64,000 nucleotides of DNA from Acetothermia bacterium 64_32 (GTDB lineage Bacteria > Bipolaricaulota > Bipolaricaulia > Bipolaricaulales > Bipolaricaulaceae), in the NCBI GenBank assembly GCA_001508155.1, contig LGFI01000001.1, positions 1-64,000 on the forward strand. The letters are read 5' to 3'. Under the pieces are notes generated by a model that was given only the letters and a program-made list of their open reading frames with translations, was not told the origin of the DNA and made no database searches. Shown here piece by piece: positions 15,854 through 58,635 of the stretch; position 1 is the first letter of the stretch; each line of letters begins with the position of its first letter. A program made the position numbers and the translations under genes.

Positions 15854-17275
15854 TTACCCCCCGGTGGGGGGCTCCTCAACCGCCTTCAGGGCACTCCGGA
15901 TCCGGGCCCTGGTTTCCTCCCAGCCTAGCACGGCCACCACCCCAGCTAGCTCAGGCCCCTGTGGCCGGCCGGTGAGCGCCAGCCGCAGGGGGTGGAAGAC
16001 CTCCCGCCGCGACAGCCCCAGCTCGCCGGCCACCTCGCCCACCAGGGCCCGCAGGTCAGCCGGCCAGCCAACCTCCAGCCTGGAAAGCACCGCCCGCAGG
16101 GCCTCCTGCGCCCTAGGCCCCCTCAACCCCTCCACCACCTCATCCCCCAGCCTCGGCCGCCTTAGCAGGGCCGAGAGGTCCGGGTGATCGGCCAGCTCGG
16201 CCAACGTGGAGACCGCCGGCCGCACCAGGGCCAGGGCCCGGGCCACCCTCCCTTCGGGCAACCCCGCCACCCCCTTCAGGAAAGGCCGGGCCCTCTCCAG
16301 GAGCTCCTGGGGGGAAAGCCGAGCCAGATGCTGGCGATTGAGCCACCTCAGCTTGGCCAGGTCGAACACCTGGGGCGCCAGGTTCACCCGGTCCAGGGAA
16401 AACCGCTCCACCAGCTCCGCCGGGGTGAACACCTCCCCCTCCCCCTTCGGCGACCAGCCAAGGAGCGCCAGATGGTTCACCACCGCCTCGGGGAGGAACC
16501 CCTGCTCCCGCAGGGCCTCCACCGAGGTCGCCCCGTGCCGCTTGGACAGCTTCCTCCTGTCCGGCCCCAGGATCACCGAAAGGTGGCCGAACTGGGGGGG
16601 GTCCCACCCCAAGGCCCGGTAAAGCCAGATCTGCTTAGGGGTGTTGGAGATGTGATCCTCGCCCCTGAGCACATGGGTGATCCCCATCTCGTGGTCGTCC
16701 ACCACGCAGGCCAGGTTATAGGTGGGGGTCCCATCGGCCTTCTGGATCACGAAGTCCCCGGTGGTGAGGCGGCGGAAGCGCACCTCCCCCCGCAGGAAGT
16801 CCCGGAAGGACGTTTCCTTGGCCTCCTCGGGCACCCTGAACCTGACGGCCGGCCTCCTGCCCTGGGCAAGATAGCGCTCCTGCTCCGCCCGGCCGAGGGC
16901 CCGACAATGGCCGTCGTACTCCGGGGCCTCACCCCGGGACAGGGCCCGCCTGCGCCGGGCAGCCAGCTCCTCCGGGGTGCAGTAGCAGGGGTAGGCCTTG
17001 CCCTCCGCAAGCAGCCTTTCCACGTACTTGCGGTAGACAGGCAGCCGCTCTGACTGGAAGTAAAGCTCATCCCAATCGAGCCCCAGCCACCTGAGGGCCT
17101 CCAGGATCCCCCGCACGAACCGCTGCTCCGACCGGGCGAGGTCGGTGTCCTCCACCCGGAGAACAAGATCGCCCCCCTCCTTCCTCGCCCAAAGCCAGTT
17201 GAACAGCGCCGTCCTTGCGCCACCCACGTGCAGCTCCCCGGTGGGGCTGGGCGCAAACCTAACCCGCAATGTCAT
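15854..17275 (-). CDS. gltX: Glutamyl-tRNA synthetase
   Basis: A class I aminoacyl-tRNA synthetase of 473 residues. The HIGH-type motif is in APSPTGELHVGGARTALFNW and the KMSKS-type motif is KLSKRHG near residue 242. Start ATG 17275 was preferred to one 18 codons upstream because the extra residues do not match the family and because TATAAT ends only 6 bases before 17275, which predicts that transcription starts on this ATG. No Shine-Dalgarno is needed in that case. Confidence 0.95.
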   Translation of the reverse strand: MTLRVRFAPSPTGELHVGGARTALFNWLWARKEGGDLVLRVEDTDLARSEQRFVRGILEALRWLGLDWDELYFQSERLPVYRKYVERLLAEGKAYPCYCTPEELAARRRRALSRGEAPEYDGHCRALGRAEQERYLAQGRRPAVRFRVPEEAKETSFRDFLRGEVRFRRLTTGDFVIQKADGTPTYNLACVVDDHEMGITHVLRGEDHISNTPKQIWLYRALGWDPPQFGHLSVILGPDRRKLSKRHGATSVEALREQGFLPEAVVNHLALLGWSPKGEGEVFTPAELVERFSLDRVNLAPQVFDLAKLRWLNRQHLARLSPQELLERARPFLKGVAGLPEGRVARALALVRPAVSTLAELADHPDLSALLRRPRLGDEVVEGLRGPRAQEALRAVLSRLEVGWPADLRALVGEVAGELGLSRREVFHPLRLALTGRPQGPELAGVVAVLGWEETRARIRSALKAVEEPPTGG

Positions 17276-17281
17276 CCTGGG

Positions 17282-17287
17282 ATTATA
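17282..17287 (-). promoter_or_regulatory. -10 element of gltX, leaderless start
   Basis: A perfect TATAAT on the minus strand, 6 bases upstream of the gltX ATG. The -35 region is poor. Confidence 0.6.
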
Positions 17288-17416
17288 CGGGAAAAAGACA
17301 CCTGTCCGCCCCCAGGGCGACAAAACCACCCTCTCCGGCGCCCAGGCGGCATGGAGCCGAAGGTGATCTCGATTACTCTGAAATCATCCGTAAAAGAAAC
17401 AAGGAGGGGTGCGGAG

Positions 17417-18004
17417 ATGGGGAAGTATGCAGTGCTTTTCGGGTTGCTCCTGGTGGGGAGCTTGGGGCTGGCACAAACGCCCCAGGAGGAGATCGCCACC
17501 ATGCAGGCCGCCTTCGGCCAGGTGACCGACTTCTTCGCCTCGTTCATCCAGGAGTCCAAGGAGCATTTCCTGACCTTGGAGAGCTCCTTTGCCGGGCTTT
17601 CGACCCGGGTGGACGGCTTGGCCCAGGATGTGGAGCTCCTGAAGTCCTCCCTGGAGGACCACGAATCCCGGATCACAAAGCTCGAACAGATAGACCTCGG
17701 GGCCGTTCAGCGCCGGCTCCTCGCCCTGGAGGAGGCCCGCCAGGCCCTGGAGATAAAGATCGACAACAACCGCGCCAAGGTGGAATCCGTGGAGGCCGGC
17801 CTGGGCGGCTACCAGTCGGACATAGCGACGCTACAGTCCTCCATCATCGAGCTTGAGACGGGCCTGGCAAGCCAGGGGGAGGAGCTCGCCGCCCTGAGGG
17901 AGGAGCTCCAATCCCTGAAGCGGGCGCAGGACTCCCAGTGGGCGGCCATCGTCCTGGTCCCGGTGCTTATGGGGACGTTGGTCTACTTTCTTCTGCAGGA
18001 CTAA
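17417..18004 (+). CDS. Secreted coiled-coil protein with C-terminal anchor, paralogue 1
   Basis: 195 residues of unknown function. The start ATG 17417 follows AAGGAGGGG by 7 bases. A signal peptide (residues 1-19, ending LGLA-Q) is followed by about 145 residues of coiled coil, with heptads such as LTLESSFAGLSTRVDGLAQDV, and then a C-terminal membrane segment (AAIVLVPVLMGTLVYFLL). It shares the block DLG-x2-QRR-x-LALE with KI-x-NNRAK and LGG with the gene at 18189-18962, so the two arose by duplication. It probably stands on the outer face of the inner membrane or spans the periplasm. No known family is recognised. Confidence 0.8.
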   Translation: MGKYAVLFGLLLVGSLGLAQTPQEEIATMQAAFGQVTDFFASFIQESKEHFLTLESSFAGLSTRVDGLAQDVELLKSSLEDHESRITKLEQIDLGAVQRRLLALEEARQALEIKIDNNRAKVESVEAGLGGYQSDIATLQSSIIELETGLASQGEELAALREELQSLKRAQDSQWAAIVLVPVLMGTLVYFLLQD

Positions 18005-18033: not shown

Positions 18034-18192
18034 ATGGCCAAGCCGGACAAGACAACTGACCGGAAGTGGTACGACAAACCTACCCCGGCTTCCACCCAGC
18101 GGCCCGTGCCCCCCATCCCCGTTTCGGATAGGGTGGACCAGGGATGGCAAGGCCCTAAAAGCACCGGAGAGGAAAGGGGGTGGAAGGGATGA
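18034..18192 (+). CDS. Small Pro-rich protein between the coiled-coil paralogues
   Basis: A 52-codon frame, MAKPDKTTDR... to ...ERGWKG, with 8 prolines and several charged residues and no membrane segment. GAGGGGG lies 8 bases upstream of the ATG. Its TGA overlaps the ATG of the second paralogue (ATGA), an arrangement that is unlikely by chance and suggests translational coupling. I do not recognise it. Confidence 0.5.
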   Translation: MAKPDKTTDRKWYDKPTPASTQRPVPPIPVSDRVDQGWQGPKSTGEERGWKG

Positions 18193-18962
18193 AGAGAATG
18201 CTTTCGGCCTTGATGGTGGGGTTCCTACTAGCTTCGCTGGGGGTTGCCCAAGAAGCGAGCCTCCCGCCGGTGGAGGAGGAGATCGCGGCACTGGAGCAGG
18301 TTTACGATCAGGTGACAGGCTACTTCGGCAGCCTCATCGCCGAGCTAAAGGGGGCCATCCGTTCCCTGAACGCCAGCGACCAGGATCTTGCCGGCCGCTA
18401 TCAGGCCCTGGAAGCAAAGCTTCAAGAGCTGGAAGGGGAGCTCGGCCGGCTCCAGGAGGTATGTGCCCAGGTGCCGGAGCTGGCCGATCGCCTTACGTCC
18501 CTGGAGGCCAGGCTGGCGGCCGAGGTTTCCGGGCTGAGGGCCGATATGGATAAAAAGATGGGCCTTTTGGCCGATGAGCTGAACTCCCAGCTCTCGGAGC
18601 ACGAGGCCCGGATCGCCGCCCTTGAGGAGCAGGACCTGGGTTCGCTTCAGCGCCGCATCCTGGCCCTGGAACAGGCCACCCAGGCCTTACAGGTCAAGAT
18701 CGAGAACAACCGCGCCAAGCTGGAGGGGTTCGAGGCGCTCCTGGGGGGGTTCACCGCCGACATCCAGGCCAACAAGGACGCCATCGCCCAGCTCAGGGGC
18801 CGGGTGACCGAGCTGGATGCCCGCGCGGCCACCCTGGAGGCCCAGGTGGAGGGACTGGACGTGAAGGCCATGCAGGACGCCCTGGGGGCGGCCCAGGGCA
18901 TGGCCCTCCTGGCGCTCCTCGCCGGGATCGGGGCCATCGCCCTGCACTTCATGGGCGGCTAG
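18189..18962 (+). CDS. Secreted coiled-coil protein with C-terminal anchor, paralogue 2
   Basis: 257 residues, starting at ATG 18189 behind GGAAGGG. Signal peptide (MKRMLSALMVGFLLASLGVAQ), then about 210 residues of heptad-rich coiled coil, and a C-terminal hydrophobic stretch (MALLALLAGIGAIALHFMGG). The central block (DLGSLQRRILALEQATQAL, KIENNRAK, LGGFTADI) matches the upstream paralogue, and the protein is longer by roughly 60 residues of extra coil. It is followed by a terminator, so the three genes form one transcription unit. Envelope-spacer proteins are a possible analogue; this is inference. Confidence 0.8.
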   Translation: MKRMLSALMVGFLLASLGVAQEASLPPVEEEIAALEQVYDQVTGYFGSLIAELKGAIRSLNASDQDLAGRYQALEAKLQELEGELGRLQEVCAQVPELADRLTSLEARLAAEVSGLRADMDKKMGLLADELNSQLSEHEARIAALEEQDLGSLQRRILALEQATQALQVKIENNRAKLEGFEALLGGFTADIQANKDAIAQLRGRVTELDARAATLEAQVEGLDVKAMQDALGAAQGMALLALLAGIGAIALHFMGG

Positions 18963-18971
18963 AGAGCCGGG

Positions 18972-18996
18972 GGGGCGCACCGCGCCCCTCCTTTTT
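18972..18996 (+). terminator. Terminator of the coiled-coil operon
   Basis: GGGGCGC (18972-18978), a 3-base loop, GCGCCCC (18982-18988), then TCCTTTTT. Confidence 0.8.
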
Positions 18997-19007
18997 GGCC
19001 AAGCACG

Positions 19008-19019
19008 TAACAAATGTTA
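19008..19019. promoter_or_regulatory. Candidate operator of the XRE regulator
   Basis: The inverted repeat TAACA-AA-TGTTA, about 27 bases before the XRE start, next to a TATATT hexamer (about 19017). The size and symmetry suit autoregulation by the small HTH protein. Confidence 0.4.
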
Positions 19020-19045
19020 TATTCGTAACCCTGGGGAGGTTGGGG

Positions 19046-19285
19046 ATGGATTTGGGAAGCAGGCTAAGGCAGTTCCGCTTGGAAAACGGCCTGAGCAAGC
19101 GGTCGGTGGCCGGGCTCCTTGGGGTCTCCGTCCCCACCGTGATGCGCTGGGAAGAGGGGAGGAGCGTCCCCAACGACTACAACCGGCACAAGATCGAGCG
19201 GCTGCTCTCAAGGGGCCAGGAGATGCCCCTGTTCGAAAGCCGTCCCCGGATGGTGCTCCTGAGCCTGTTCGACCAGCCGACATGA
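19046..19285 (+). CDS. Small XRE-type helix-turn-helix regulator
   Basis: 79 residues. The HTH is in LRQFRLENGLSKRSVAGLLGVSVPTVMRWEEGRSVP (about residues 6-40), with a short C-terminal tail. ATG 19046 follows GGGAGG. Its TGA overlaps the smc start, so this protein is co-transcribed with smc-scpAB, an unusual partner for the condensin operon. A role in chromosome segregation or in control of that operon is possible but unproven. Confidence 0.75.
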   Translation: MDLGSRLRQFRLENGLSKRSVAGLLGVSVPTVMRWEEGRSVPNDYNRHKIERLLSRGQEMPLFESRPRMVLLSLFDQPT

Positions 19286-21759
19286 GCACCGCCATCAAAC
19301 GGCTTGAGATCCAAGGTTTCAAGTCGTTCCGCAAGCGGGTGGTGCTCCCCTTTTACCCCGGGTTCACGGCCATCGTGGGGGAAAACGGCACGGGGAAATC
19401 CAACATCTTCGATGCGCTGGCGTTCGTCATGGGCAGGAGGTCGCGGTCCCTTAGGGCAGAGCGGGTGGAACAGCTCCTCCACGCCCCTCCGGGGGGGGAG
19501 CCCGTGCAGGAGGCGGTGGTCTCCCTGACCCTGGACAACAGCTCCGGGTTGTTCGACGAGCTCCTGCCGGCCCCCGCCAAGGAGGTGGTGCTGTCCCGCA
19601 GGATAACCCCGGACTCCTCCACCTATCGGCTCCAGGGGAGGCCTGTCCCGGCCAAGGCGGTGGAGGGCCTGCTCTCCCTGGCCAAGATCGACCCCAGTGG
19701 TTACCACATCGTGGAGCAGGGCATGGTGATCGACGTCTTGGAGCGTTCCCCCAAGCGCCGCCGGGAGATCCTGGATGAGGTGGCGGGGATCGCCGCCTAC
19801 GAGGAGCGTAAGGCCAAGGCCATCTCCGAGCTCGCCCAGGTGAAGGAGCGGCTCAACACCAGCCGGATCCTATTGGCCGAGCGCCGCCATCGCCTGGCGG
19901 AGCTCCACCGGGAGAGGGAAGCGGCCTTGGAGCACAGGGCGCTGACCGAGGAGCGGGACCGCCTGGCCGCCAGCCTTGCCTTCCACCGCTGGCAGTCCTT
20001 GAGCCGGTCCCTGGAGCGGGCCCAGGCCCGCGCCGAGCAGACCCGGGGGGAGGTGGAGGAGCTGGCCAGGGAGGTGGACCGCCTGGACCGCGAGATCGAG
20101 CTCCAGGAGAGGGAGCTCGGGGAAAGGGCCCCCGCCCAGGACGAGGAGATGGCCGAGCTCATCCGGGCGGTGGAGGGACTACGGGGGAAGCTCTCGGCAA
20201 AGGAGGCCGAGGCCCGTGCCCTGGAGCGGGAGCTTAACTCGCTGCGGGATAGCATCGAGGAGCTGAAGCGATTTGTGGGGTTGAAGGATCGGGTGCCCGA
20301 GCCGGTGGCCGCCATCCTTGGGCTTGGTTGGGAGGGGATCCACGGCACGGTGGGGCAGTTGGTGCGCCCTGAGGAGGGGTTGGAGCTCGCCTTCGAGACC
20401 GCCCTGGGGGGGCATCGACACGACCTGGTAGTGGAGAGCCGGGCCCTCGCCCTGGAATGCGTCCGTTACCTCAAACAGGAGGGGCTGGGCCGGGCCAGGC
20501 TCCTCCCCTTAGATCGCCTGGCGGTGCCCCGCATCTCCCCCAAGGCCCGCGAGGCCCTACGGCTCCCCGGGGTGATGGGGCTGGCCATCGAGCTGTGCCA
20601 ATTCCCGCCCCGGGTGAGGGATGCGGTGGCCTATGTGCTCGCCGATACCCTGGTGGCCGAGACGCTTGAGGCGGTACGGGAGCTCTTCGGGGTGCGGGTG
20701 GTCACCCTGGATGGGGACCTTCTGGAGCGGGGCGGGGCCATCGTGGGGGGGGCACCCAGGAAGGGGGGCGGCCCGGACCTCTCGGGGAAGCTGGCCCACC
20801 TGGCGAGGGTGGAGGGGGAGCTCAGGGCCGCCCGACAGGAGATCGAAAGGCTCTCTGCCGAGCTCAGCGCCGCCGAGGTCCGCCTCAGCGAACACTCCCG
20901 GAAGATGGCCCAAAGGAAGGCGGCCCGCTCCGCCGCCGAGCAGGGGCTGCTCGAGCTGCGGCAACGGCGGAAGGAACTCTACCTTGCACTGGAAAGGAAA
21001 AGGACCTCCCTCTCCCGCTACGAGCGGGAGGCGGCCGAACTTAGGGGGGAACTAGCCGCCCTGGGGGAGGTGCCCCAACCCCCCGGGGGAACGGTCCCCG
21101 GAACCCCGGACGTGCTCCAAGCCCGCCTTAGACAGGTGGAAAGACGCCTGGCGGAGCTCGGCCCGGTCAACCTGCGCGCCATTGAGGAATACGAGGCGTT
21201 CCTCGTGGAGTTCCAGGCGTTCAAGGAGAGGGTACGCACCCTGGAACGGGAAAAACACGAGATAGAGCACTTCATCGGGGAGCTGGAGAAGAAAAAGAGG
21301 GAGAAGTTCTTAGTCACCCTGGAGACGGTCTCGGCTGAGCTGGACAGGATTTTCAAGCGGCTGTTCGGTGGGGGGGAAGCCGGGCTCAAGCTGGCCGAGG
21401 AAGGCAACATAGACTCGGGGCTTTTGGTATACGCCCGCCCCCCGGGCAAGGAGCCGCGGCTTTTGGATGCCCTATCCGGTGGGGAGAAGACCCTGGTGGC
21501 GATCGCGTTCGTGCTCGCCCTGGCGGCCGGCCGACCCGCCCCCTTCTATCTCCTTGACGAGGTGGACGCGGCCCTGGACCGGGCCAACTCCGAACGCCTG
21601 GCCGCCCTCCTCAGGGATTTTGCTAAAAAATCTCAGGTGATTGTCATCTCTCATAACGAGGAGCTGGTGAGGTTTGCCGACCGGGTTTACGGGGTGACCA
21701 TGAGGGACGGTACCTCCTCGGTGGTGGCCCTGGAGCTTGTGAGCCATGGGGCGAGTTGA
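19282..21759 (+). CDS. smc: Chromosome condensin SMC, short-armed
   Basis: An SMC ATPase of 825 residues, far below the 1150-1200 usual in bacteria. Walker A GENGTGKS is at 33-40; the first coil runs about 174-332; the hinge about 340-495 (with GGAIVGG near 484-490); the second coil about 505-690, interrupted by a Pro/Gly stretch at 596-610; the signature LSGGEKTL is at 731-738, Walker B YLLDEVDAALD at about 756-766, then the D-loop. Both heads and the hinge look complete, so the shortening is in the arms, each about half normal. It is followed by scpA (overlap 14 bases) and scpB. Confidence 0.92.
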   Translation: MSTAIKRLEIQGFKSFRKRVVLPFYPGFTAIVGENGTGKSNIFDALAFVMGRRSRSLRAERVEQLLHAPPGGEPVQEAVVSLTLDNSSGLFDELLPAPAKEVVLSRRITPDSSTYRLQGRPVPAKAVEGLLSLAKIDPSGYHIVEQGMVIDVLERSPKRRREILDEVAGIAAYEERKAKAISELAQVKERLNTSRILLAERRHRLAELHREREAALEHRALTEERDRLAASLAFHRWQSLSRSLERAQARAEQTRGEVEELAREVDRLDREIELQERELGERAPAQDEEMAELIRAVEGLRGKLSAKEAEARALERELNSLRDSIEELKRFVGLKDRVPEPVAAILGLGWEGIHGTVGQLVRPEEGLELAFETALGGHRHDLVVESRALALECVRYLKQEGLGRARLLPLDRLAVPRISPKAREALRLPGVMGLAIELCQFPPRVRDAVAYVLADTLVAETLEAVRELFGVRVVTLDGDLLERGGAIVGGAPRKGGGPDLSGKLAHLARVEGELRAARQEIERLSAELSAAEVRLSEHSRKMAQRKAARSAAEQGLLELRQRRKELYLALERKRTSLSRYEREAAELRGELAALGEVPQPPGGTVPGTPDVLQARLRQVERRLAELGPVNLRAIEEYEAFLVEFQAFKERVRTLEREKHEIEHFIGELEKKKREKFLVTLETVSAELDRIFKRLFGGGEAGLKLAEEGNIDSGLLVYARPPGKEPRLLDALSGGEKTLVAIAFVLALAAGRPAPFYLLDEVDAALDRANSERLAALLRDFAKKSQVIVISHNEELVRFADRVYGVTMRDGTSSVVALELVSHGAS

Positions 21760-22447
21760 GCTTTTGGAGCTCGAGGCGCTGGCCCGGGCCGACTGGGACC
21801 TGCTCTTCTCCCGGCTCGCCCGGGACATGGACCCGTGGGCGGTGGACCTGGTGGAGCTGGTAAGCCGATTCCGGGGGTATCTGGCCCTCCTTCAGGGCCT
21901 GGAGCTCGAGGTCCCCGGCCGGATGCTACATGCCGGCGCAGTGCTCCTGCGTATGAAGTCGGAGTGGATCCGGGATCAGGACCGCCGACCGGTGGCCCTG
22001 GAGCAGGTGGTCAGGGAGGTGGAGGAAGCCCCGGTGGCGGAGGAGGTTTACATCGCTCCGGAGCTCAGGCTCCCGCTTCTGCGCCGGCCCAAGGCCAGGG
22101 CTAGTCTAGCCGAGCTCCGCCGGGCCCTGAAGTGCGCCCTGCTGCACGGGGAAAGAAGGGAACAAGGGCAAAAGAAGCCATCTCCAAACGAGCTTGGGCT
22201 GAGGATTTCAAAGGAGCCCTTCAGCCGCCGCACCAAGCGCCTGCTCAGAAAGCTCCTCTCCCTGATAAACGGGAGCCGCATCATCCCCTTTTCGGCCCTC
22301 CTCAGCAAAAGGGATCCCCGGGAAAAGGTGGCCACCTTCATGGAGCTTTTGCACCTGGACACGGAAGGCAAGGTGCGGCTTGTGCAAGAAGAGTTCTTAG
22401 GGGAGCTCCTGATCGAGGTGGGGGATGGAGCCGAAGGCGTTGATTGA
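21746..22447 (+). CDS. scpA: Segregation and condensation protein A (kleisin)
   Basis: 233 residues. The N-terminal region (FSRLARDMDPWAVDLVELVSRF) and the middle (LHAGAVLLRMKSEWI) match the kleisin ScpA, which bridges the two SMC heads. The C-terminal winged helix carries ILSKRDPREKVATFMELLHLDTEGKVRLVQ-like sequence. The start lies inside the end of smc and the stop overlaps scpB, so all three subunits of the Smc-ScpAB complex are made together. Confidence 0.9.
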   Translation: MGRVELLELEALARADWDLLFSRLARDMDPWAVDLVELVSRFRGYLALLQGLELEVPGRMLHAGAVLLRMKSEWIRDQDRRPVALEQVVREVEEAPVAEEVYIAPELRLPLLRRPKARASLAELRRALKCALLHGERREQGQKKPSPNELGLRISKEPFSRRTKRLLRKLLSLINGSRIIPFSALLSKRDPREKVATFMELLHLDTEGKVRLVQEEFLGELLIEVGDGAEGVD

Positions 22448-22913
22448 GGCGGCCCTGTTTGTGGCCGATCGTCCCCTGTCCCCGGCTAGGCTGGCCCAGG
22501 TCCTGGGGCTCTCGGAGGAGGCGGTGGGGCGGCTGATCCAGGCCTTGGCCGACGAGTACTCCTCCCCGGATCGGGGGCTGGAGGTGGTGCAGGAGGGCGG
22601 GGGCTACGTCCTGCAGGTGAAGGCGGAGCTGGCCGACGCGGTGAGGCCCCTGGCCCCGGGGCAGGACATCCCGGAGCCGGTCCTCCGTACCCTGGCCCTG
22701 ATCGCCTACCGGGGGCCGATCCTTCAGTCGGAGCTGGTGCGGCTGCGGGGCCAGCGGGCCTACTCCCACGTCCGGGAGCTCGTGGAGCGGGGGTTGGTAC
22801 GCGCCGAGGAGGATGGGGTCACCAAGCGCCTTTCGGTCACCAAGGCGCTGCTCTCCTATTTTGGGGTTGAAACAGAGGAACAGCTGCGCTCCCTGCTTGA
22901 GCCCGAAGGCTAG
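22425..22913 (+). CDS. scpB: Segregation and condensation protein B
   Basis: 162 residues, a little shorter than usual (about 190). It is a tandem winged-helix protein: EAALFVADRPLSPARLAQVLGL, DRGLEVVQEGGGYVLQ, PVLRTLALIAYRGPILQSELVRLRG and the C-terminal GVTKRLSVTKALLSYFGV are classic ScpB blocks. It dimerises and binds the kleisin ScpA. The 3' end overlaps the helicase gene on the other strand by 4 bases. Confidence 0.92.
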   Translation: MEPKALIEAALFVADRPLSPARLAQVLGLSEEAVGRLIQALADEYSSPDRGLEVVQEGGGYVLQVKAELADAVRPLAPGQDIPEPVLRTLALIAYRGPILQSELVRLRGQRAYSHVRELVERGLVRAEEDGVTKRLSVTKALLSYFGVETEEQLRSLLEPEG

Positions 22914-25060
22914 GGTCGGACGAGGCTGCGGGCCTGCTCGGGGAGGGAGCGGGCCAGGCCGGGGCCGATGTGGGGGACGGCCTCCAGGGCGGCGGGGGAC
23001 GCTCTTGCTATGGTGGCAAGGTCCCGGAAGCCGCGGTCGTAAAGTGCCCGGGCGCGCACCCTCCCCACGCCCCGTAGCCTGACCAATCCCAGGAGCTCTC
23101 CCCGCACCCCATAGCGCACCCGCTCCCTGAGCAAGGGGAGGGGACCAAGGGGCAAGCGGAACAGCCCGGCGATCCTTTCAGCGGCGTAGAGCAACCACTC
23201 CGCCTGTTCCCTGAGCCGGTAGGTGTCCCCGGGGCCCAGGCCGAACCGCCTGTGGAGCTCCGCCTCGGAGGCCTCGGAGATCCAAGCGGAAAGCGCCAGG
23301 GCCGTCTTCACCTCCGTCAGGAAGTCGGCGTACTCCTGGGTTCCGGGGGCGGGGACCGGCACCAGGAAGCCCTCCTCCTCCACCAAGGCGGGCAGGGCTG
23401 CCAGGTCCGCCTGGCGGAGCCATAGGCGCTCCATATCCGGGGTGTGGGCCACCAGGTGCAAGATGGAAAGCTCGGAGGGCTCGCCCGACTGGGCCCCGGC
23501 CAGCCCATCCCGCAGGATCACCCCGGACAGGGGATGGATGTAGAGCTTGGCCACAAGCTCCCCGAACGGGGTGGGGGAAAGGCCCCGCTCGGACTCCCTC
23601 ACCATGCCCTCGGCCACAAGAAAGCCGAGTGCCTCCTCCAGCCTCAGGGTGAGCCCGGCCAGCCCGGACTGCCGGGCAAGCAGGGTCAAGGAGAAGAACC
23701 TCAAAAGCCCCTGACGGGAGCGGGCGTAGCCGGCAGCGATGGCCCCTAGCACGTGGGCGGCGATGGCCCCGGAGGCGAGCTGGGAGGTTATCCGTTCCGG
23801 CGGGGCGAGTACATACCTTAAAAGAAGCTCCTCCCGGTCCGCCTCGTCCTTGGCCACCAGGACGGCCTCCCCGTATGGGTCCAGGCCCGGCCGCCCTGCC
23901 CTCCCCGCCATCTGGTGGAACTCTAAGGTGGGGATGTATGAGGAACCGTATGGGGGCCGGTAGCGGCGTACGTCCCGGATGATCACCCGCCTTGCGGGCA
24001 GGTTCACCCCGGCCGCCAGGGTGGTGGTGGTGCAAAGCACCTTGAGGAGCCGGTTGCGGAAGGCCTCTTCCACGGCCTTCCTCTGGGTGTAGTGGAGCCC
24101 GGCGTGGTGGAAGGCCACCCCGGCCGGAAGGAAGCGGGCGAGCTCCCGGCAGATGGGGGTGGGTTCGTCAAGCGCCCCCAATACCATCTGGGCCAGCCGG
24201 GAAAGCCCCTCAGCCTCCGATTCGGTCAGGGTCTGGGAGACGGGCCGGGCGAGCCTCCGGGCCAGGGCCTGGGTGGCCCGCCTGGTGCCCACGAACACCA
24301 GCGCCTGCCCCCCTTCCCGCACCACCTCCAGCACCAGATCGAACACCGGCCCCAGCCCGCCCTCCACCTTCCTCCGGCTGCCGTCGGAGAGGAAAAGCTC
24401 CCCGGCCAGGTAGACCCCAGCCCGGAGGGGGACGGGGCGGAAATCGCTTATCACCGCCTGGGCACCCAGCCAATCGGCGATCTCCTCGGCATTGTGTACC
24501 GTAGCGGAAAGGGCCAAGAGCTGGAGGTCCGGCCGGGCATGCCGCAGGGCGGCCACCAACACCTCCAGGGTCGGCCCCCGCCCTGGGTCGGCCAGCATAT
24601 GCACCTCGTCCAGGACCACCAGGGATAGCCCGTCCAGGAGCCAGCTCGCCCGGTGGCGGAGCAGGGAGTCTGCCTTCTCGTTGGTGAGCACCACCACGTG
24701 ACTGTTCGCCAGGTGGGGATCGGTACGGTCGAAGTCCCCGGTGGCCAAGCCCACCTCGATCTCAAGCGGTGCGTATCTTGCCCTTAGCTGCTCGTATTTT
24801 TCGCTTGCGAGCGCCCGCAGGGGGACCAGGTAAAGCACCCTTCCCCCCCGGACAAGGACCGTTTTGAGCATGACGAGCTCCGCCACCAGGGTCTTGCCCG
24901 AGGCGGTGGGGGCGGCCAGGAGCAGCGACGCCCCCTCCAGGGCCCCGGCGGAGAGCGCCGCCTCTTGAGGGGGGTAAAGCTCCTCGATTCCGGCCCGGCG
25001 TATGGCCTCGGCTGCCCCTTCGGGCAAGGAATAGAGCCGACACAGCTCTTCCACCCTCAC
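22910..25060 (-). CDS. Hel308/Ski2-like superfamily 2 DNA helicase
   Basis: 716 residues. The N-terminal YPPQEAAL Q-motif region is followed by Walker A APTASGKT (about 50-57), DEVH box (about 150), motif III LSAT, and motif VI HQMAGRAGRPG. A winged-helix and ratchet domain follow, and the C-terminus has helix-hairpin-helix repeats (LVRLRGVGRVRARALYDRGF, AVPHIGPGLARSL). This order is that of Hel308, an archaeal replication-fork repair helicase found in only some bacteria. An archaeal origin is likely but not proven. The start is GTG 25060. Confidence 0.85.
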   Translation of the reverse strand: MRVEELCRLYSLPEGAAEAIRRAGIEELYPPQEAALSAGALEGASLLLAAPTASGKTLVAELVMLKTVLVRGGRVLYLVPLRALASEKYEQLRARYAPLEIEVGLATGDFDRTDPHLANSHVVVLTNEKADSLLRHRASWLLDGLSLVVLDEVHMLADPGRGPTLEVLVAALRHARPDLQLLALSATVHNAEEIADWLGAQAVISDFRPVPLRAGVYLAGELFLSDGSRRKVEGGLGPVFDLVLEVVREGGQALVFVGTRRATQALARRLARPVSQTLTESEAEGLSRLAQMVLGALDEPTPICRELARFLPAGVAFHHAGLHYTQRKAVEEAFRNRLLKVLCTTTTLAAGVNLPARRVIIRDVRRYRPPYGSSYIPTLEFHQMAGRAGRPGLDPYGEAVLVAKDEADREELLLRYVLAPPERITSQLASGAIAAHVLGAIAAGYARSRQGLLRFFSLTLLARQSGLAGLTLRLEEALGFLVAEGMVRESERGLSPTPFGELVAKLYIHPLSGVILRDGLAGAQSGEPSELSILHLVAHTPDMERLWLRQADLAALPALVEEEGFLVPVPAPGTQEYADFLTEVKTALALSAWISEASEAELHRRFGLGPGDTYRLREQAEWLLYAAERIAGLFRLPLGPLPLLRERVRYGVRGELLGLVRLRGVGRVRARALYDRGFRDLATIARASPAALEAVPHIGPGLARSLPEQARSLVRP

Positions 25061-34849: not shown

Positions 34850-37321
34850 CTAGCCGGCCTTTTCTTTCAGTTGGAAGAGCAGCTCCAGGGCCTCCAAGGG
34901 GGTGAGCTTTTCGGGGTTGATCCCGCGGAGGGCGGCCACCACCGGGTGGTCTTCCGGCCCGAACAGGGGGAGCTGTTGGCCGTGTCCTTGGGCGATGGGC
35001 ACTGATTTTTCAAGTTCTTCCAGCATCCGCCGGGCCTCGGCCAGCACCTTGGGGGGGAGTTGGGCCAAGCGGGCCACCTCCACCCCGTAGGACTGCTCGG
35101 CCACCCCCGGCTGGACCCGGTGTAGGAAGATCACCTCCCCCTTCCACTCCCGCACCGCCATGTGCAGGTTGATCACCCCCCGCACCCGTTCCGCCAGGCG
35201 CGCCAACTCCCGATAGTGTGTGGCGAACAGGGTCTTACAGCGGATGTTTTCCGCCAGGTGCCGGGCGATGGCCCAGGCCAGGGCAAGGCCGTCGTGGGTG
35301 CTGGTGCCCCGGCCGAGCTCATCTAGGATCACCAATGACCGGTCCGTGGCCCCGGAGAGGATCTGGGCTGCCTCTTTCATCTCCGCCATGAAGGTGGACA
35401 GGCCCCCGGCCAGGGCATCGGAGGCCCCTACTCGGGCGTAGATCCGGTCTAGGACAGGGAGCTCGGCTTCCTTGGCCGGAACGAACGAGCCAACTTGGGC
35501 AAGCAGCGCGATCAGCGCCACCTGCCTTAAGAACACGGACTTCCCGGCCATGTTGGGGCCTGTCACCACCGCCAAGTTGACCCCCTCGTCCATAAAGAGG
35601 TCGTTGGGCACGAACTCCACCGTCCGTTCCACCACCGGGTGGCGGCCGTCCCGGATGCGGATGCAAGGCCTGTCGGTGAAGCGCGGCCGGCTGTAGCCGT
35701 TCCTGTGCGCCACCTCGGCGAGCGACCTTAGCACATCCACAGTTGCCAGGGCCTCCCCCACCCGGGCCAGGGCGGGGAGGGCCTCCCCCACCCGGGAGCA
35801 GAGCTCCTGAAAGATCCTTTCCTCAAGGGCGCAGATCTCCCCCTCCACCTGGAGCAAGTCCTCCGCCAGGGAGGAAAGCTCGGGGGTGGTGTAGCGCTCC
35901 CCCCCGGCCAACGACTGCCGCCGGCGCCAATGGGGTGGGACCTTGTGGACGTGGGCCTTGGTGAGCTCCAGGTAATAGCCCAGTACCCGGTTGTAGCCCA
36001 CCTTCAGCGTGGGGATGCCGGTCTTGGCCCGCTCCTTCTCCTCCAATGCGGCGATGTCCTCCTTCAGCCTGGCCGCCTCCCCCCGCAGGCGGTCGAGCTC
36101 CGGGCTGTATCCGGGGCGGATGAGCCCGCCTTCCCCGGGTTCGGGTGGGGGATCGTCCACCAGCGCCCGGTCGATCTCCTGGGCCAGCCCCTGTGGTCCT
36201 ACCTCCAGGGCCTGGAGGACGGAGGAAAGCAGGGCTGAGTCCTCGGGGAGCTCCTTTTGGATCTCGGGCAGGGTCTGGAGGGTGCGACGCAGGGCCACCA
36301 GGTTCATGGGGCGCAGCCTTCCCGTGCCCACCCGGCCCAGGAGCCGGGGCAGGTCGCACACCCGGGACAACAGCCTCCCTAAGGGCTCCCATCTGGCCCC
36401 CTGGATCAGGGCCTCGACGGCATCCAGCCGGGCCTCGATTTGGGCTCGGTCCCGCAGCGGGGAGAGGAGCCACCTGCGCAAAAGCCTCCTTCCCATAGGG
36501 GTCTTCGTCCGGTCGAGCACGGAAAGGAGGGTGAGCTTTCCCTCCGGGCGCAGGGGGGCGATCAGCTCCAGGGACCTTTGGGTGAAGGGGTCGAGCACCA
36601 TGGCCCCCGTTGCGTCCCGCCACACCGGGGGGCGTAGATGGTGAAGGTCCCCCACGGTCTCCTCCAGGTAGGCCACGATGGCGCCGGCGGCGCGGGCGGC
36701 AAGCTCGGCCTGGGGAAGGGAGCCCGGGAAACGGCCCCTCAGCCGGGTCGCCGAGAACTCCGAAAGGGGACGGGTGGTCTTGGGGCCGGGGAGCTCCAGA
36801 GGGGCAGGGGCCTCGGCGGGGAGCAGCCACTCCTGTACCGAGATGCCGGCCAAAAGGTGGGGGAGCTCGGGGAGGTCCACCTGGGCGGCATAGAACTCCC
36901 CGGAGGCCGCCTCGGCCCAGGCCACCCCCACCTTCCCCCCCTCGGAAACCAGGGCGGCAAGGTACACGTCTTGGCTTGGGTCGAGGGCCTCCTCCTCCAA
37001 CACCGTCCCCGGGGTGAGCACCCGCACCACCCTCCGCTCAAGGAGCCCCTTCCCTTTTCCCGGACGCTCCACCTGCTGACAGAGGGCCACCTTGTACCCC
37101 CGCCTGAGCAGGCGCTGGAGATAAACATCCGCCCGCCTTACCGGCACCCCGGCCATGGGATGCCCGTCCCTCTGGGTGAGGACGATGTCGAGCTCCCTGG
37201 CCACAAGCTCCGCATCTTCAAAGAACGTTTCATAAAAATCACCCAACTGAAAGAACAGGATGGCGTCGGGGTAGCGGGCCTTGGCCTGGTGGTACTGTTG
37301 CATCATCGGGGTGAGTTCCAT
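34850..37321 (-). CDS. mutS: DNA mismatch repair protein MutS
   Basis: 823 residues, MutS1 length. The mismatch-reading GDFYETF motif is at about residues 26-32. The connector and lever domains follow; the ATPase has GPNMAGKS (about 615), DELGRGTST near 690 and the THY motif in FATHYREL. It recognises mismatches and recruits MutL; no mutL gene is present in this window. Convergent with the SDH gene with a 1-base gap. Confidence 0.95.
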   Translation of the reverse strand: MELTPMMQQYHQAKARYPDAILFFQLGDFYETFFEDAELVARELDIVLTQRDGHPMAGVPVRRADVYLQRLLRRGYKVALCQQVERPGKGKGLLERRVVRVLTPGTVLEEEALDPSQDVYLAALVSEGGKVGVAWAEAASGEFYAAQVDLPELPHLLAGISVQEWLLPAEAPAPLELPGPKTTRPLSEFSATRLRGRFPGSLPQAELAARAAGAIVAYLEETVGDLHHLRPPVWRDATGAMVLDPFTQRSLELIAPLRPEGKLTLLSVLDRTKTPMGRRLLRRWLLSPLRDRAQIEARLDAVEALIQGARWEPLGRLLSRVCDLPRLLGRVGTGRLRPMNLVALRRTLQTLPEIQKELPEDSALLSSVLQALEVGPQGLAQEIDRALVDDPPPEPGEGGLIRPGYSPELDRLRGEAARLKEDIAALEEKERAKTGIPTLKVGYNRVLGYYLELTKAHVHKVPPHWRRRQSLAGGERYTTPELSSLAEDLLQVEGEICALEERIFQELCSRVGEALPALARVGEALATVDVLRSLAEVAHRNGYSRPRFTDRPCIRIRDGRHPVVERTVEFVPNDLFMDEGVNLAVVTGPNMAGKSVFLRQVALIALLAQVGSFVPAKEAELPVLDRIYARVGASDALAGGLSTFMAEMKEAAQILSGATDRSLVILDELGRGTSTHDGLALAWAIARHLAENIRCKTLFATHYRELARLAERVRGVINLHMAVREWKGEVIFLHRVQPGVAEQSYGVEVARLAQLPPKVLAEARRMLEELEKSVPIAQGHGQQLPLFGPEDHPVVAALRGINPEKLTPLEALELLFQLKEKAG

Positions 37322-54765: not shown

Positions 54766-57700
54766 TCAACCGACGATGTCCTGGTATCTTGCCACCACCC
54801 GCGTGTTGGCCCTAAGGGTGAGCCTCAGCGAGTACGTGTTCGTCCTCCGATCGAAGGTGCCTGGGTACTCCACCGGCTCGTCGGCGTCGCCTATCCAGAC
54901 CTGGAATCCCTGGAAGGCCACACCATAGGGGCCGGCAACGTTGCTCCGTGCCGGCACGGTTATGACTATCTCCGTCCCGGACGCCCTCTGGACGGTGAAC
55001 GGAGTGTAGCGCTGTCTGGCCTCGTCGGAGAGCTTTACCGGGATCTCGATATCCTCATACCCCGGCGTCACCATGATTATGTGATGGGCACGTACCTCCA
55101 AGTTGACCTGAATCGGGTAAACCCTTATCGGTGGGATGATGCCGATGGTGATGCAGGGTTCCAGTTCGACCTGTTGTTGGGCCGTCTTCCTCTGCCCCCG
55201 GGCGTCTTGGACCTGTACGAAGGCAGTGATAGTACCACCCGTCCTCAGGTCCACTTGGAAGGTCATGGATCCGGAGTTGGGGAAGTGGTCGATGCGCGAC
55301 TCTACATGGCCGTCCGGATAGCGTATCCCGACGGGCCCCACCACCAGAGGGGAGGTGCCGCCTGAGGCCTGCCAGTAAACGGTCACCGCGTGGGAGTACT
55401 CGTCCCCGCACACCTTGTCCACCGCGGTGCGGATGGTCACCGAGAGGGGCTTCACTTGAGCCTCCTCCCCGCCCACCCTTATCCGGACCAAGAGGCGGAT
55501 GACCTCGCACCCCCCTTTGTCGTAGAGGGAGAACACCACCTCATAGGTGGCGGGCTGCGGTGGCATGTAGCCCTGCAGGAGGCCGGTGCCGTTTGCCAGG
55601 TTAAGCCCGAACTCCACCCCGCTGGGAAGGCCACTTGAGGAGATCTTCGCCTCCTGGGCCCCAGCGGACCGGATCCGGGAGATCAGGGAAGAGGGCATCT
55701 GCCTCTGGGTAAGGAAGTGCAGGGTACCCCCCTTCACCTCCCCGAAGTCCCACTCAAGGCTCTGCGGCTCCGGGCATTCGGGCTCGGTGGGCCCGGTCGG
55801 CTGCCCCACCTGGATCAGCACGTAGAGCTGCCCCACCGGGCACTGTCGCCCATCAAACAAGGTGAAAAGGAGCTCGTACGTGGCGTACTCGGAAGGCACC
55901 ATGCCCGCGAGGCGCCCCTGGCCGTAGTCCAAAAGGAGCTCAAAGGAGAGCCCCGCCGGGAGGTTGGAGGAGACGAGGGTCGAGGACACAACGCCCAGCT
56001 CCTCGATGGCGGCCCTCAGCCCCTGGGGCATGGGTCGGGTGATGCTGACCCGCATCCCCGGGGAAACCTGCCCGAAGTCCCACTTGAAGCTGCGGGGTTC
56101 AGGGCATTCCGGGGTGGGCACCACCGTCTCCGGCACGTACTCCTCGCAGGTGGGCACAAGACACTCGGGATCGATGAACGCCTGCACGGAGGTCTGGATG
56201 TCGGGCACCACCTCCACCGAGGTGGAGGCGGTGGCTGCCGATTGCGCCGCCGCGTTGGCCATGGCCTGGGCCTGGGCAAGCGCAGATGCGCACGCCTCGG
56301 CCAGGGCGGTGGCGCGGGCCTCCGCCTCCGCGGACGCCATGGCCTGGGCATGGGCATGGGCCGCGGCCACCGCGCACGCCCGGGCCGAGGCATAAGCAGA
56401 GGCGTAGGCCTGGGCGAGCGCCTGAGCCGCGGCGAATGCCCGGGCCTGGGCGTGGGCTTCGGCCCCGGCCGCGGCATACGCCGCAGCGGCGGCATCGGCG
56501 AAGGCCCCGGCCGCCGCCTCCACCGCCACGGCCACCTGGGCCTCGGCTTGCGCCCGGGCCAGAGCCGCCGCCTGGGCGGCTGCCAGGGCCTCGGCCTGGG
56601 CCTCGGCCAGGGCGCCGGCCTGGGCCTCGGCGCTCGCCCCGGCTGCCACCGCGGCCTCGGCGCAAGCGCGGGCGGCTGCCTCGGCCTGGGCGCTCGCCTC
56701 CGCGATCGCTTGGGCCCCGACCGCTACCTGGGCCTCAGCCCGGGCCCGGGCGGCCGCACACGCCCGCGCCGCAGCTTCGGCCCGGGCGGCCGCTTCGGCC
56801 ACCGCCTCCAGGCCCGAGGCGGCCTCAGCCTGAGCGGCTGCAAGGGCCTGGGCCGCCGCCTGGGCCTCCGCTTGGGCCTGGGCCGCCGCCTGGGCCGCCG
56901 CCTGGGCGTGGGCGATGGCCTGAGCCGCCCCCATGGCCTCGGCGGCGGCATAAGCTCGGGCATAGGCTTCCCCGGTGCCGGCAGCCGAGGCCTGCGCCTG
57001 GGCTTGGGCCTCCACCTGGGCCGCAGCGGCGGCACACGCCTGGGCCTCCGCTTGGGCCTGGGCCGCCGCCTCGGCCGCCACCTGGGCGTGGGCCTCCACC
57101 TCGGCTACCGCCCGGGCTACCGCACCCGCCAGGGAACCGGCCGCGCTCTGGGCCTGGGCATAGGCTTCGGCCGCCGCCTGGGCGCTGGCCTCTGCCTGGG
57201 CCGCCGCCTCGGCCAGGGCAGTGGCCATGGCTTGAGCCTCGGCCTGTGCCCTGGCACATGCCTGGGCCGCCGCTTGGGCCTGAGCGCTGGCCCGGGCTTG
57301 AGCCTGAGCTATGGCCTGGGAGTAAGCCTTGGCATCGGCACTGGCCCTGGCACACGCCTGGGCGATGGCAGTGGCCTGAGCCTGGGCGTGGGCCTGGGCA
57401 CTGCCGATCGCCTGGGCCGCCGCCTCGGCCGCCGCCTTCGCCTCCGCATACGCCTGGGCACACGCCCCAGCCGCCGCCTGGGCGCTGGCCCGGGCCTGGG
57501 CTATGGCCTGGGCCGCCGCTTGAGCCTCGGCGATCGCCTCGGCGTGGGCCTGGGCGATCGCCTGGGCGGCCGCGTGGGCCTGGGCATAGGCCGCTGCCGC
57601 CGCTTGGGCCGCCGCCTCCGCCCGCGCCTGCGCGGATGCTGCCGCCTCCGCCCGGGCACTGGCGCTAGCCTCGGCCAGGGCGGTTGCCTGAGCGGCAGCC

Positions 57701-58635
57701 TCTGCCGCTGCGCTGGCCTTGGCCACCGCGGTGGCGATGGCCTCCACCACCCCGCCCACCTGCGTCACCACCGTGCCACAGGGGACGGCCGTCTGCACCG
57801 TCTGCTTCACCAGCTCCGCCTCGTCCTGGGCACGGGAGAAAGCCTGAGCCGAGGAGCTTGCCTGAGCCTCCGCGTACGCCCGGGCACTCGCGACCGCCTG
57901 AGCGTAGCTTGAGGCCTGGGCCGCTGCCTCCGCGGCCGCTTGGGCGGCCGCCTTGGCCGTGGCCACTGCCCCGGCCGCGGCACTGGCCTGGGCCTCGGCC
58001 TCGGCCTGGGCCTGGGCAATGGCTTCGGCAACCGCCTGGGCATAGGCCTCCACCTCAGCCTGGGCAGCGGCGCACGCCTGGGCCGCCGCCTGGGCCTCGG
58101 CCTGGGCCTGGGCGATGGCGCTCAGTACCTCCTCTACCTTGGCCTGGGCATCGGCTTGGGCGGAAGCACAGGCGTTGGCCTGGGCCTGGGCGTCGGCCTG
58201 GGCCGAGGCACAGGCCTCGGCAAACGCCTGGGCCGCTGCCTCCGCCCGGGCAGCCGCCTGAGAACAGGCTTGGGCGTATGCCCGGGCATCCGCCACCGCC
58301 TCAGCACAGGCCCGTGCCAGGGCCTCGGCCCGGGCTTGGGCGGTCGCCTGCGCCTCGGCTATCGCCTGGGCATAGGCCTGGGCGTCCGCGTTCGCCTCCT
58401 CGGCCCGGGACAGGAGCCCACTTACATCTAGCCCGGCGAGCAGCTCCTGGGCCTGTTGAAGGGCGGCCTGGGCCTGAGCCTGGGCCCAGGCGGCCGCCTG
58501 GGCGGCCGCCTGGGCCATGGCCACGATGTCCGGCAGGAACGGCTCGTGCTCTTGCTGGGATAACGCCGGCACGAAAAGCCCCACCGCCAGCACTACCCCC
58601 AACAGCGCTGCCTTCAATCTCCTCGCCACACGCAC
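54766..58635 (-). CDS. Giant secreted Ala-X repeat protein with beta-domain C-terminus
   Basis: 1289 residues, unrecognised. The start is GTG 58635 with AAAGGAGGAGG just upstream. Signal peptide about 1-27 ([12 protein letters not shown]). Residues about 38-805 are an almost unbroken alternation of Ala with another residue, mostly Gln, Glu, Ser, Arg, Tyr, Val; Pro is almost absent and about a dozen Cys fall at the non-Ala positions. A break near 265-300 ([15 protein letters not shown]) splits it. A Cys-rich linker is followed by two tandem copies (from about 842 and 952) of a roughly 110-residue beta unit with ECPEP, WDFG and LPxG[LV] motifs, then two more beta-type domains. It lies between two same-strand tRNA arrays. 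Surface fibre or sheath is a guess. Confidence 0.8.

Follow-up and report, generated by a model that had tools for sequence, protein, structure and literature searches.

The arms of prokaryotic SMC proteins come in preferred lengths: the accessible part of PMC5344682 gives modes of 238, 341 and 515 residues, with possible minor modes at 163 and 423. In the Bacillus arm-length screen described there, function returned at 267–253 residues—253 being the shortest functional length—with a period of 91 residues. Models of loop extrusion disagree on the role of the long SMC arms. In one simulation of an inchworm mode, the captured DNA segment is about as long as the SMC complex, and at low tension each cycle makes a mean step of 47 nm (PMC9122525, in its accessible part).

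The DNA analysed here, hereafter the window, is a stretch of 64,000 nucleotides from Acetothermia bacterium 64_32 (phylum Bipolaricaulota; contig LGFI01000001.1, positions 1 to 64,000). It contains an operon in which smc, scpA and scpB overlap, scpB starting inside scpA. The features of interest are as follows.

18995–19029, + strand: putative operon promoter (−35 TTGGCC at 18995–19000, 17 nt spacer, −10 TATATT at 19018–19023)
19007–19029: palindromic element GTAACAAATGTTATATTCGTAAC, overlapping the promoter; likely operator of the HTH protein
19046–19285, + strand: small XRE-type HTH protein of 79 aa, with QEMPLF and LLSLF in its tail; stop overlaps the smc start codon
19282–21759, + strand: smc, 825 aa, translated without internal stop
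SMC parts, by residue: N head 1–176; N arm 177–337; hinge 338–494; C arm 495–667; C head 668–823
Joint within the SMC C arm: about residues 595–632
21746–22447, + strand: scpA (kleisin), 233 aa; PF02616 at 39.8 bits, best stretch C-terminal; start inside smc
22425–22913, + strand: scpB (kite subunit), 162 aa; PF04079 at 133.2 bits; TIGR00281 at 94.7 against a cut-off of 89.2

The window SMC combines the split ABC head and the hinge of a chromosomal SMC, both above the curated Pfam cut-offs (SMC_N, 216.5 bits against 40, spanning residues 5–812; SMC_hinge, 94.6 bits against 22.5, at 351–467). The ORF translation and these matches confirm a sequence-only reading that had described complete heads and a hinge within 825 residues. 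The best NCBIfam models are two chromosomal SMC equivalogs, TIGR02169 and TIGR02168; the scores lie below their equivalog cut-offs (628.4 of 729.4 and 562.2 of 567.35 bits, respectively), and so the protein is not assigned to either. Such shortfalls are expected if many arm columns stay empty, the two models covering 1165 and 1181 positions with long arms included.

Arm length was taken as the head-to-hinge linker, delimited with N head, hinge and C head profiles; the idea of this definition follows the available part of PMC5344682. The window SMC has an N-strand arm of 161 residues and a C-strand arm of 173, a mean of 167, while 1185-residue Firmicutes SMCs gave 332 and 356–357 by the same measurement (mean 344–344.5). 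The Firmicutes result equals the Bacillus value of 344 in the accessible part of PMC5344682, which indicates that the two length scales agree. Mean arm lengths were 344.7 residues in 48 full-length SMCs (a set from which the uneven-armed long records L056, L071, L096, L104, L106 and L111 were excluded), 252.7 in 18 mid-length SMCs and 172.0 in 68 Bipolaricaulota SMCs; arm length is missing for L039, L040, L058, L090 and L105, in each of which one domain profile had no match. The sequence-only estimate of 160–185 residues, against about 330 in Bacillus, is thus right, given the measured 161 and 173 against a full-length mean of 344.7. With its mean of 167, the window SMC belongs to the class of about 163 residues, which families f2, f8 and f9 fit less closely; 344 minus two 91-residue periods is 162. 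The protein fits a known but thin arm class, below the range that works in Bacillus.

A search of 100 Bipolaricaulota genomes, the window's included, returned SMC matches at default thresholds in 94 and strong ones (best E ≤ 3.1e-21) in 75, the remainder being weak and mostly ABC-type ATPase segments. The 68 measured SMCs come from 65 of the 75 strong-match genomes and from three named Bipolaricaulota records; in the other 10 strong-match genomes, the gene is split or cut by contig ends. L032–L034 look like copies of three other members, so the 68 amount to about 65 independent sequences. L141 is cut at its start yet measured, and L018, with masked letters near its start, was measured and kept out of alignments. 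All 68 are short, with arms of 159–188 residues in four families (family means of 167.4 in f1, 174.5 in f2, 177.0 in f8 and 177.7 in f9). The N strand spans 159–167 residues in f1, to which the window belongs, and 168–172 in f9; the C strand spans 171–176 and 184–188, respectively. Aligning the window SMC with other short SMCs of the phylum, a check that the sequence-only reading had proposed, brought in 45 relatives at 40–78% identity.

These relatives bear directly on what the short arms represent. The sequence-only reading had itself raised two doubts: an internal deletion by sequencing error, and relatives of normal length. The one point found in favour of an assembly or sequencing error, or of a gene in decay that has lost an internal segment, is that the window's genome is a draft assembly in 33 contigs. 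Against it, all 68 relatives, from four families, are equally short, the N and C strands are shortened in step, and the invariant columns of 46 sequences include residues that we take to be those of Walker A, the signature and Walker B. We count this explanation as already refuted by the relatives, and allow it practically no weight. Relaxed selection supposes instead that the arms shortened by genome reduction, that no special length is needed, and that they fall near the 163-residue mode by chance. Genomes of about 1–3 Mb agree with it, as do the apparent loss of SMC-ScpAB altogether in five sister families (f3–f7) and the presence of two length groups (167 and 178) instead of one; yet lengths are tight within families, where drift should scatter them, and we consider this explanation unlikely. 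The short-armed condensin is real, and is normal for most of the Bipolaricaulota.

A different kind of doubt concerns the identity of the protein. Its short arms, and its scores below the NCBIfam equivalog cut-offs, are features that it could share with an SMC-superfamily ATPase active in repair or defence. Such an ATPase sits poorly with the SMC hinge domain, with the overlapping ScpA and ScpB genes, which accompany smc in all 67 relative loci, with chromosomal SMC equivalogs as the top NCBIfam models, and with a genome in which no other SMC was found; we hold it to be very improbable. The sequence-only reading had also suggested looking for a second full-length SMC or MukB, and neither was found in the window's genome (G000; 1.81 Mb, 92% complete). 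That genome has one SMC match, besides a weak ABC-type match, and one SMC hinge. No other SMC_N match above the cut-off occurs among the matches listed; MukB (PF04310) has no match above the cut-off, only a 33-residue match below it elsewhere in the genome, and is not among the nine Pfam families that match the window SMC. As a candidate for the long-arm job in G000, no second SMC, MukB or Rad50 was found among the matches listed, in a genome of which about 8% is possibly missing. ScpB was found in 74 of the 100 Bipolaricaulota genomes. Judged from its sequence features, the window protein is very probably the chromosomal condensin, Smc-ScpAB, with arms that are naturally about half the Bacillus length, and it would work as an ordinary ring and loop-forming motor.

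In families f3–f7 of the same class (G046–G064), hinge, ScpB and ScpA are absent from 19 of 19 genomes at the thresholds used, and MukB lies above the cut-off in none of the 12 genomes searched. SMC-ScpAB seems to have been lost in the whole f3–f7 clade. Among the matches listed, these genomes carry RecF-sized or Rad50-sized SMC_N matches. The SMCs of three Patescibacteria records (L039, L040 and L058; 860, 880 and 818 aa) have both halves of the head; these genomes give no PF06470 match, and no hinge-like stretch was found between the arms. The hinge was matched in only 10 of 286 Patescibacteria genomes.

The location of the missing arm portion can be narrowed from the anatomy of the protein. 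Measured from the C head, the C-strand joint keeps a constant offset in all 68 short SMCs and in all 48 full-length ones. An AF2 model of the window SMC (pLDDT 83.4, pTM 0.50) contains both head halves, the hinge and the joint, with arm helices at residues 170–276, 289–332, 501–542, 554–594 and 633–695; its top Foldseek matches are SMC proteins, including a Pyrococcus head with coil and joint. From this constant offset and the anatomy of the model, we infer that the loss most likely lies between the joint and the hinge, the N strand being unanchored. An exact deletion site was sought and rejected: profiles of full-length arm ends reach about 103–112 residues (medians) from each end, and overlap. 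Coiled coils align promiscuously, which accounts for the overlap and leaves the C-strand joint as the sole anchor. Profiles of the N-strand joint and of hinge-proximal regions, built from short SMCs, gave no useful match to long SMCs. AF2 models of the window SMC and of one f9 SMC break both strands about 40 residues from the hinge, with low local confidence; no conserved helix breaker was found in the alignment at this candidate elbow, and the sequences behind the two models are largely the same.

In a tree of joined head segments, 28 Bipolaricaulota representatives form one clade (support 1.0). Arms of about 253 residues arise separately inside the long-armed Firmicutes, and arms of 257–263 residues in the Magasanikbacteria. 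In this tree, which is midpoint-rooted and narrowly sampled, the separate positions of shorter arms suggest that shortening seems to have occurred more than once.

The short-armed genomes also differ in ParB. A search with TIGR00180 found ParB in 0 of 8 and 1 of 22 short-arm genomes (1 of 30; the sole match is at G020:C11:519693-520241), with no match in G000. ParB exceeded the cut-off in 12 of 12 mid-arm genomes and in 13 of 14 long- or near-long-arm genomes, among which L111, with its uneven long arms, is counted and G407 gives a weak match only; it also did so in all three hinge-less Patescibacteria. With at most one mismatch allowed, consensus parS turned up in none of 26 short-arm genomes (G000 included), against 9 of 12 comparison genomes. 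By neither ParB nor parS does the window genome fall into the ParB-parS-loaded class, with the caveat that a ParB homologue could be too diverged for TIGR00180; the Thermotoga maritima control, in which the SMC hinge is present, also lacks a match. The SMC of Thermotoga maritima is long, and hence loss of ParB alone does not shorten arms. All short-arm genomes form one clade, which means that the link between short arms and ParB loss rests on a single event. The short-armed Smc would presumably be loaded without ParB, and a ParB-less lineage may separate arm-length rules from ParB loading.

Immediately upstream of smc lies the small HTH gene, whose start (ATG at 19046) was chosen from the alignment; its HTH domain scores above the cut-off on the longer ORF 18995–19285 (PF13560, 42 bits against 27). 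An HTH gene of 62–106 residues directly 5' of smc occurs in 39 of 65 loci and 20 of 25 genera, being absent in 25 loci and cut in one, and its stop overlaps the smc start with an identical 4-base offset in 30 of the 39. The promoter scan returned two overlapping sites, against 0.0 in shuffles. The palindromic element GTAACNNNNGTTA overlies the −10 box of the operon promoter, and occurs once in the window, where 0 are expected. Of the 39 loci that have the HTH gene, 36 carry the core of this element upstream of smc (all 39 under a looser pattern), against 8 of the 25 that lack the gene; the coding sequence of smc contains two copies of the core in 156,800 bases, counting both strands. Seven of the eight loci that have the core and lack the gene belong to genus g3, in which the HTH gene seems to have been lost recently. 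The simplest reading of the palindrome is autorepression: in many lineages, the HTH protein may repress the operon by binding over the −10 box.

The tail of the HTH protein is itself conserved in part. An LxLF motif occurs in 28 of 39 tails (16 of 20 with one tail per genus), against shuffle means of 0.5 and 0.3, respectively, with kinship retained. QxxLF is present in 17 of 22 f9 tails—among them QLSLF, QLDLF and QLPLF—and in 0 of 17 f1 tails; in f1, the window included, 11 of 17 carry LxLF. The sliding-clamp-binding consensus is QL[S/D]LF, with QxxLF as the general form (accessible part of PMC12309361). Immediately ahead of smc, QLPLF remains encoded in L031 and L140, and QFPLF in L139, although the HTH itself is gone. 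The window also encodes a MutS (34850–37321, − strand) with QLPLF, a possible clamp-binding motif, near its C-terminus; in other bacteria, MutS is a clamp binder.

SMC-ScpAB is kept although the HTH gene is missing in f2, f8, g8, g12, g34, 8 of the 11 g3 loci and a single g6 locus. Its absence from 25 of 65 loci, together with 11 of 39 tails without LxLF, shows that the HTH protein cannot be an obligatory loader. We read it as an autoregulator of the operon and a possible link between smc and the replication clamp. Across the many lineages that have it, the tail might bind the clamp, with smc expression or placement then following replication: clamps could pull the HTH repressor away, or keep it close to the fork, so coupling smc to replication. 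This regulatory and loading story is a lead, and makes the HTH gene a concrete candidate for condensin-replication coupling. A more ambitious proposal does without ParB altogether: a small HTH protein, encoded alongside smc and binding the clamp through its tail, would link the condensin with its half-length arms to replication. Bacterial SMC would then have a second loading or timing route, to which the arm-length limits found for ParB-loaded Bacillus Smc would not apply. We regard this as unlikely.

Several other genes of the window may be recorded. Upstream of the smc operon, 17228–18004 and 18180–18962 (both + strand) encode similar proteins with a signal-like N-terminus, a coiled coil and a hydrophobic C-terminal end; for the second, relatives occur upstream of smc at 56 of 67 loci, although coiled coils inflate such matches. 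Converging on scpB, 22910–25060 (− strand) encodes a Hel308-like helicase that carries, here in a bacterium, the archaeal helicase domain PF21280 (PRK02362, 770 of 887 bits). A 1289-aa ORF at 54766–58635 (− strand), Ala/Gln-rich near its start, has no NCBIfam or Pfam match.

What arms of this length might mean for loop extrusion can be outlined. Scaled from the 47–49 nm of Bacillus, arms of 167 residues should measure about 24 nm, and would capture a shorter DNA segment per ATP cycle. That arm length affects SMC function, as the sequence-only reading had held, finds support in the accessible part of PMC5344682; together with the simulated equivalence of captured segment and complex length (PMC9122525, accessible part), this makes the different step size it had suggested a fair prediction, namely a loop-extrusion step that would be roughly halved. 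A natural half-arm Smc-ScpAB, below the shortest functional engineered Bacillus arm, offers a direct test of step size against arm length. The reported arm class of about 163 residues, the missing ParB, the upstream HTH gene and the promoter element all go beyond that earlier reading.

Relative to prior literature, what is new is that a short-arm class is fixed throughout most of one phylum, groups as a separate clade in the head tree, and occurs where ParB is almost always absent and no consensus parS was found; our search, which left most subscription journals outside its range, found no literature on Bipolaricaulota with SMC or chromosome segregation. The sliding-clamp-binding proteins described in the accessible part of PMC12309361 resemble the f9 HTH proteins in their QLSLF-type motifs; the proteins here differ in being small HTH proteins encoded with smc, in the f1 tails having no Q, and in that their clamp binding is predicted. 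With the ParB-loaded Smc-ScpAB of Bacillus subtilis, the window system shares heads, hinge, joint, ScpA and ScpB; it differs in arm length (167 against 344 residues), in the near absence of ParB from its group and in that consensus parS was not found. The possible minor mode near 163 residues (PMC5344682, as far as its accessible part goes) has the same arm length by the same definition, with family means here of 167–178, whereas the present class is linked to a single phylum, with its operon and its lack of ParB. Finally, the engineered B. subtilis Mini-Smc of the same source, again in its accessible part, likewise joins the hinge to the head-proximal arm with the middle missing; its shortest functional arm is 253 residues, while the natural arm in the window is 167.
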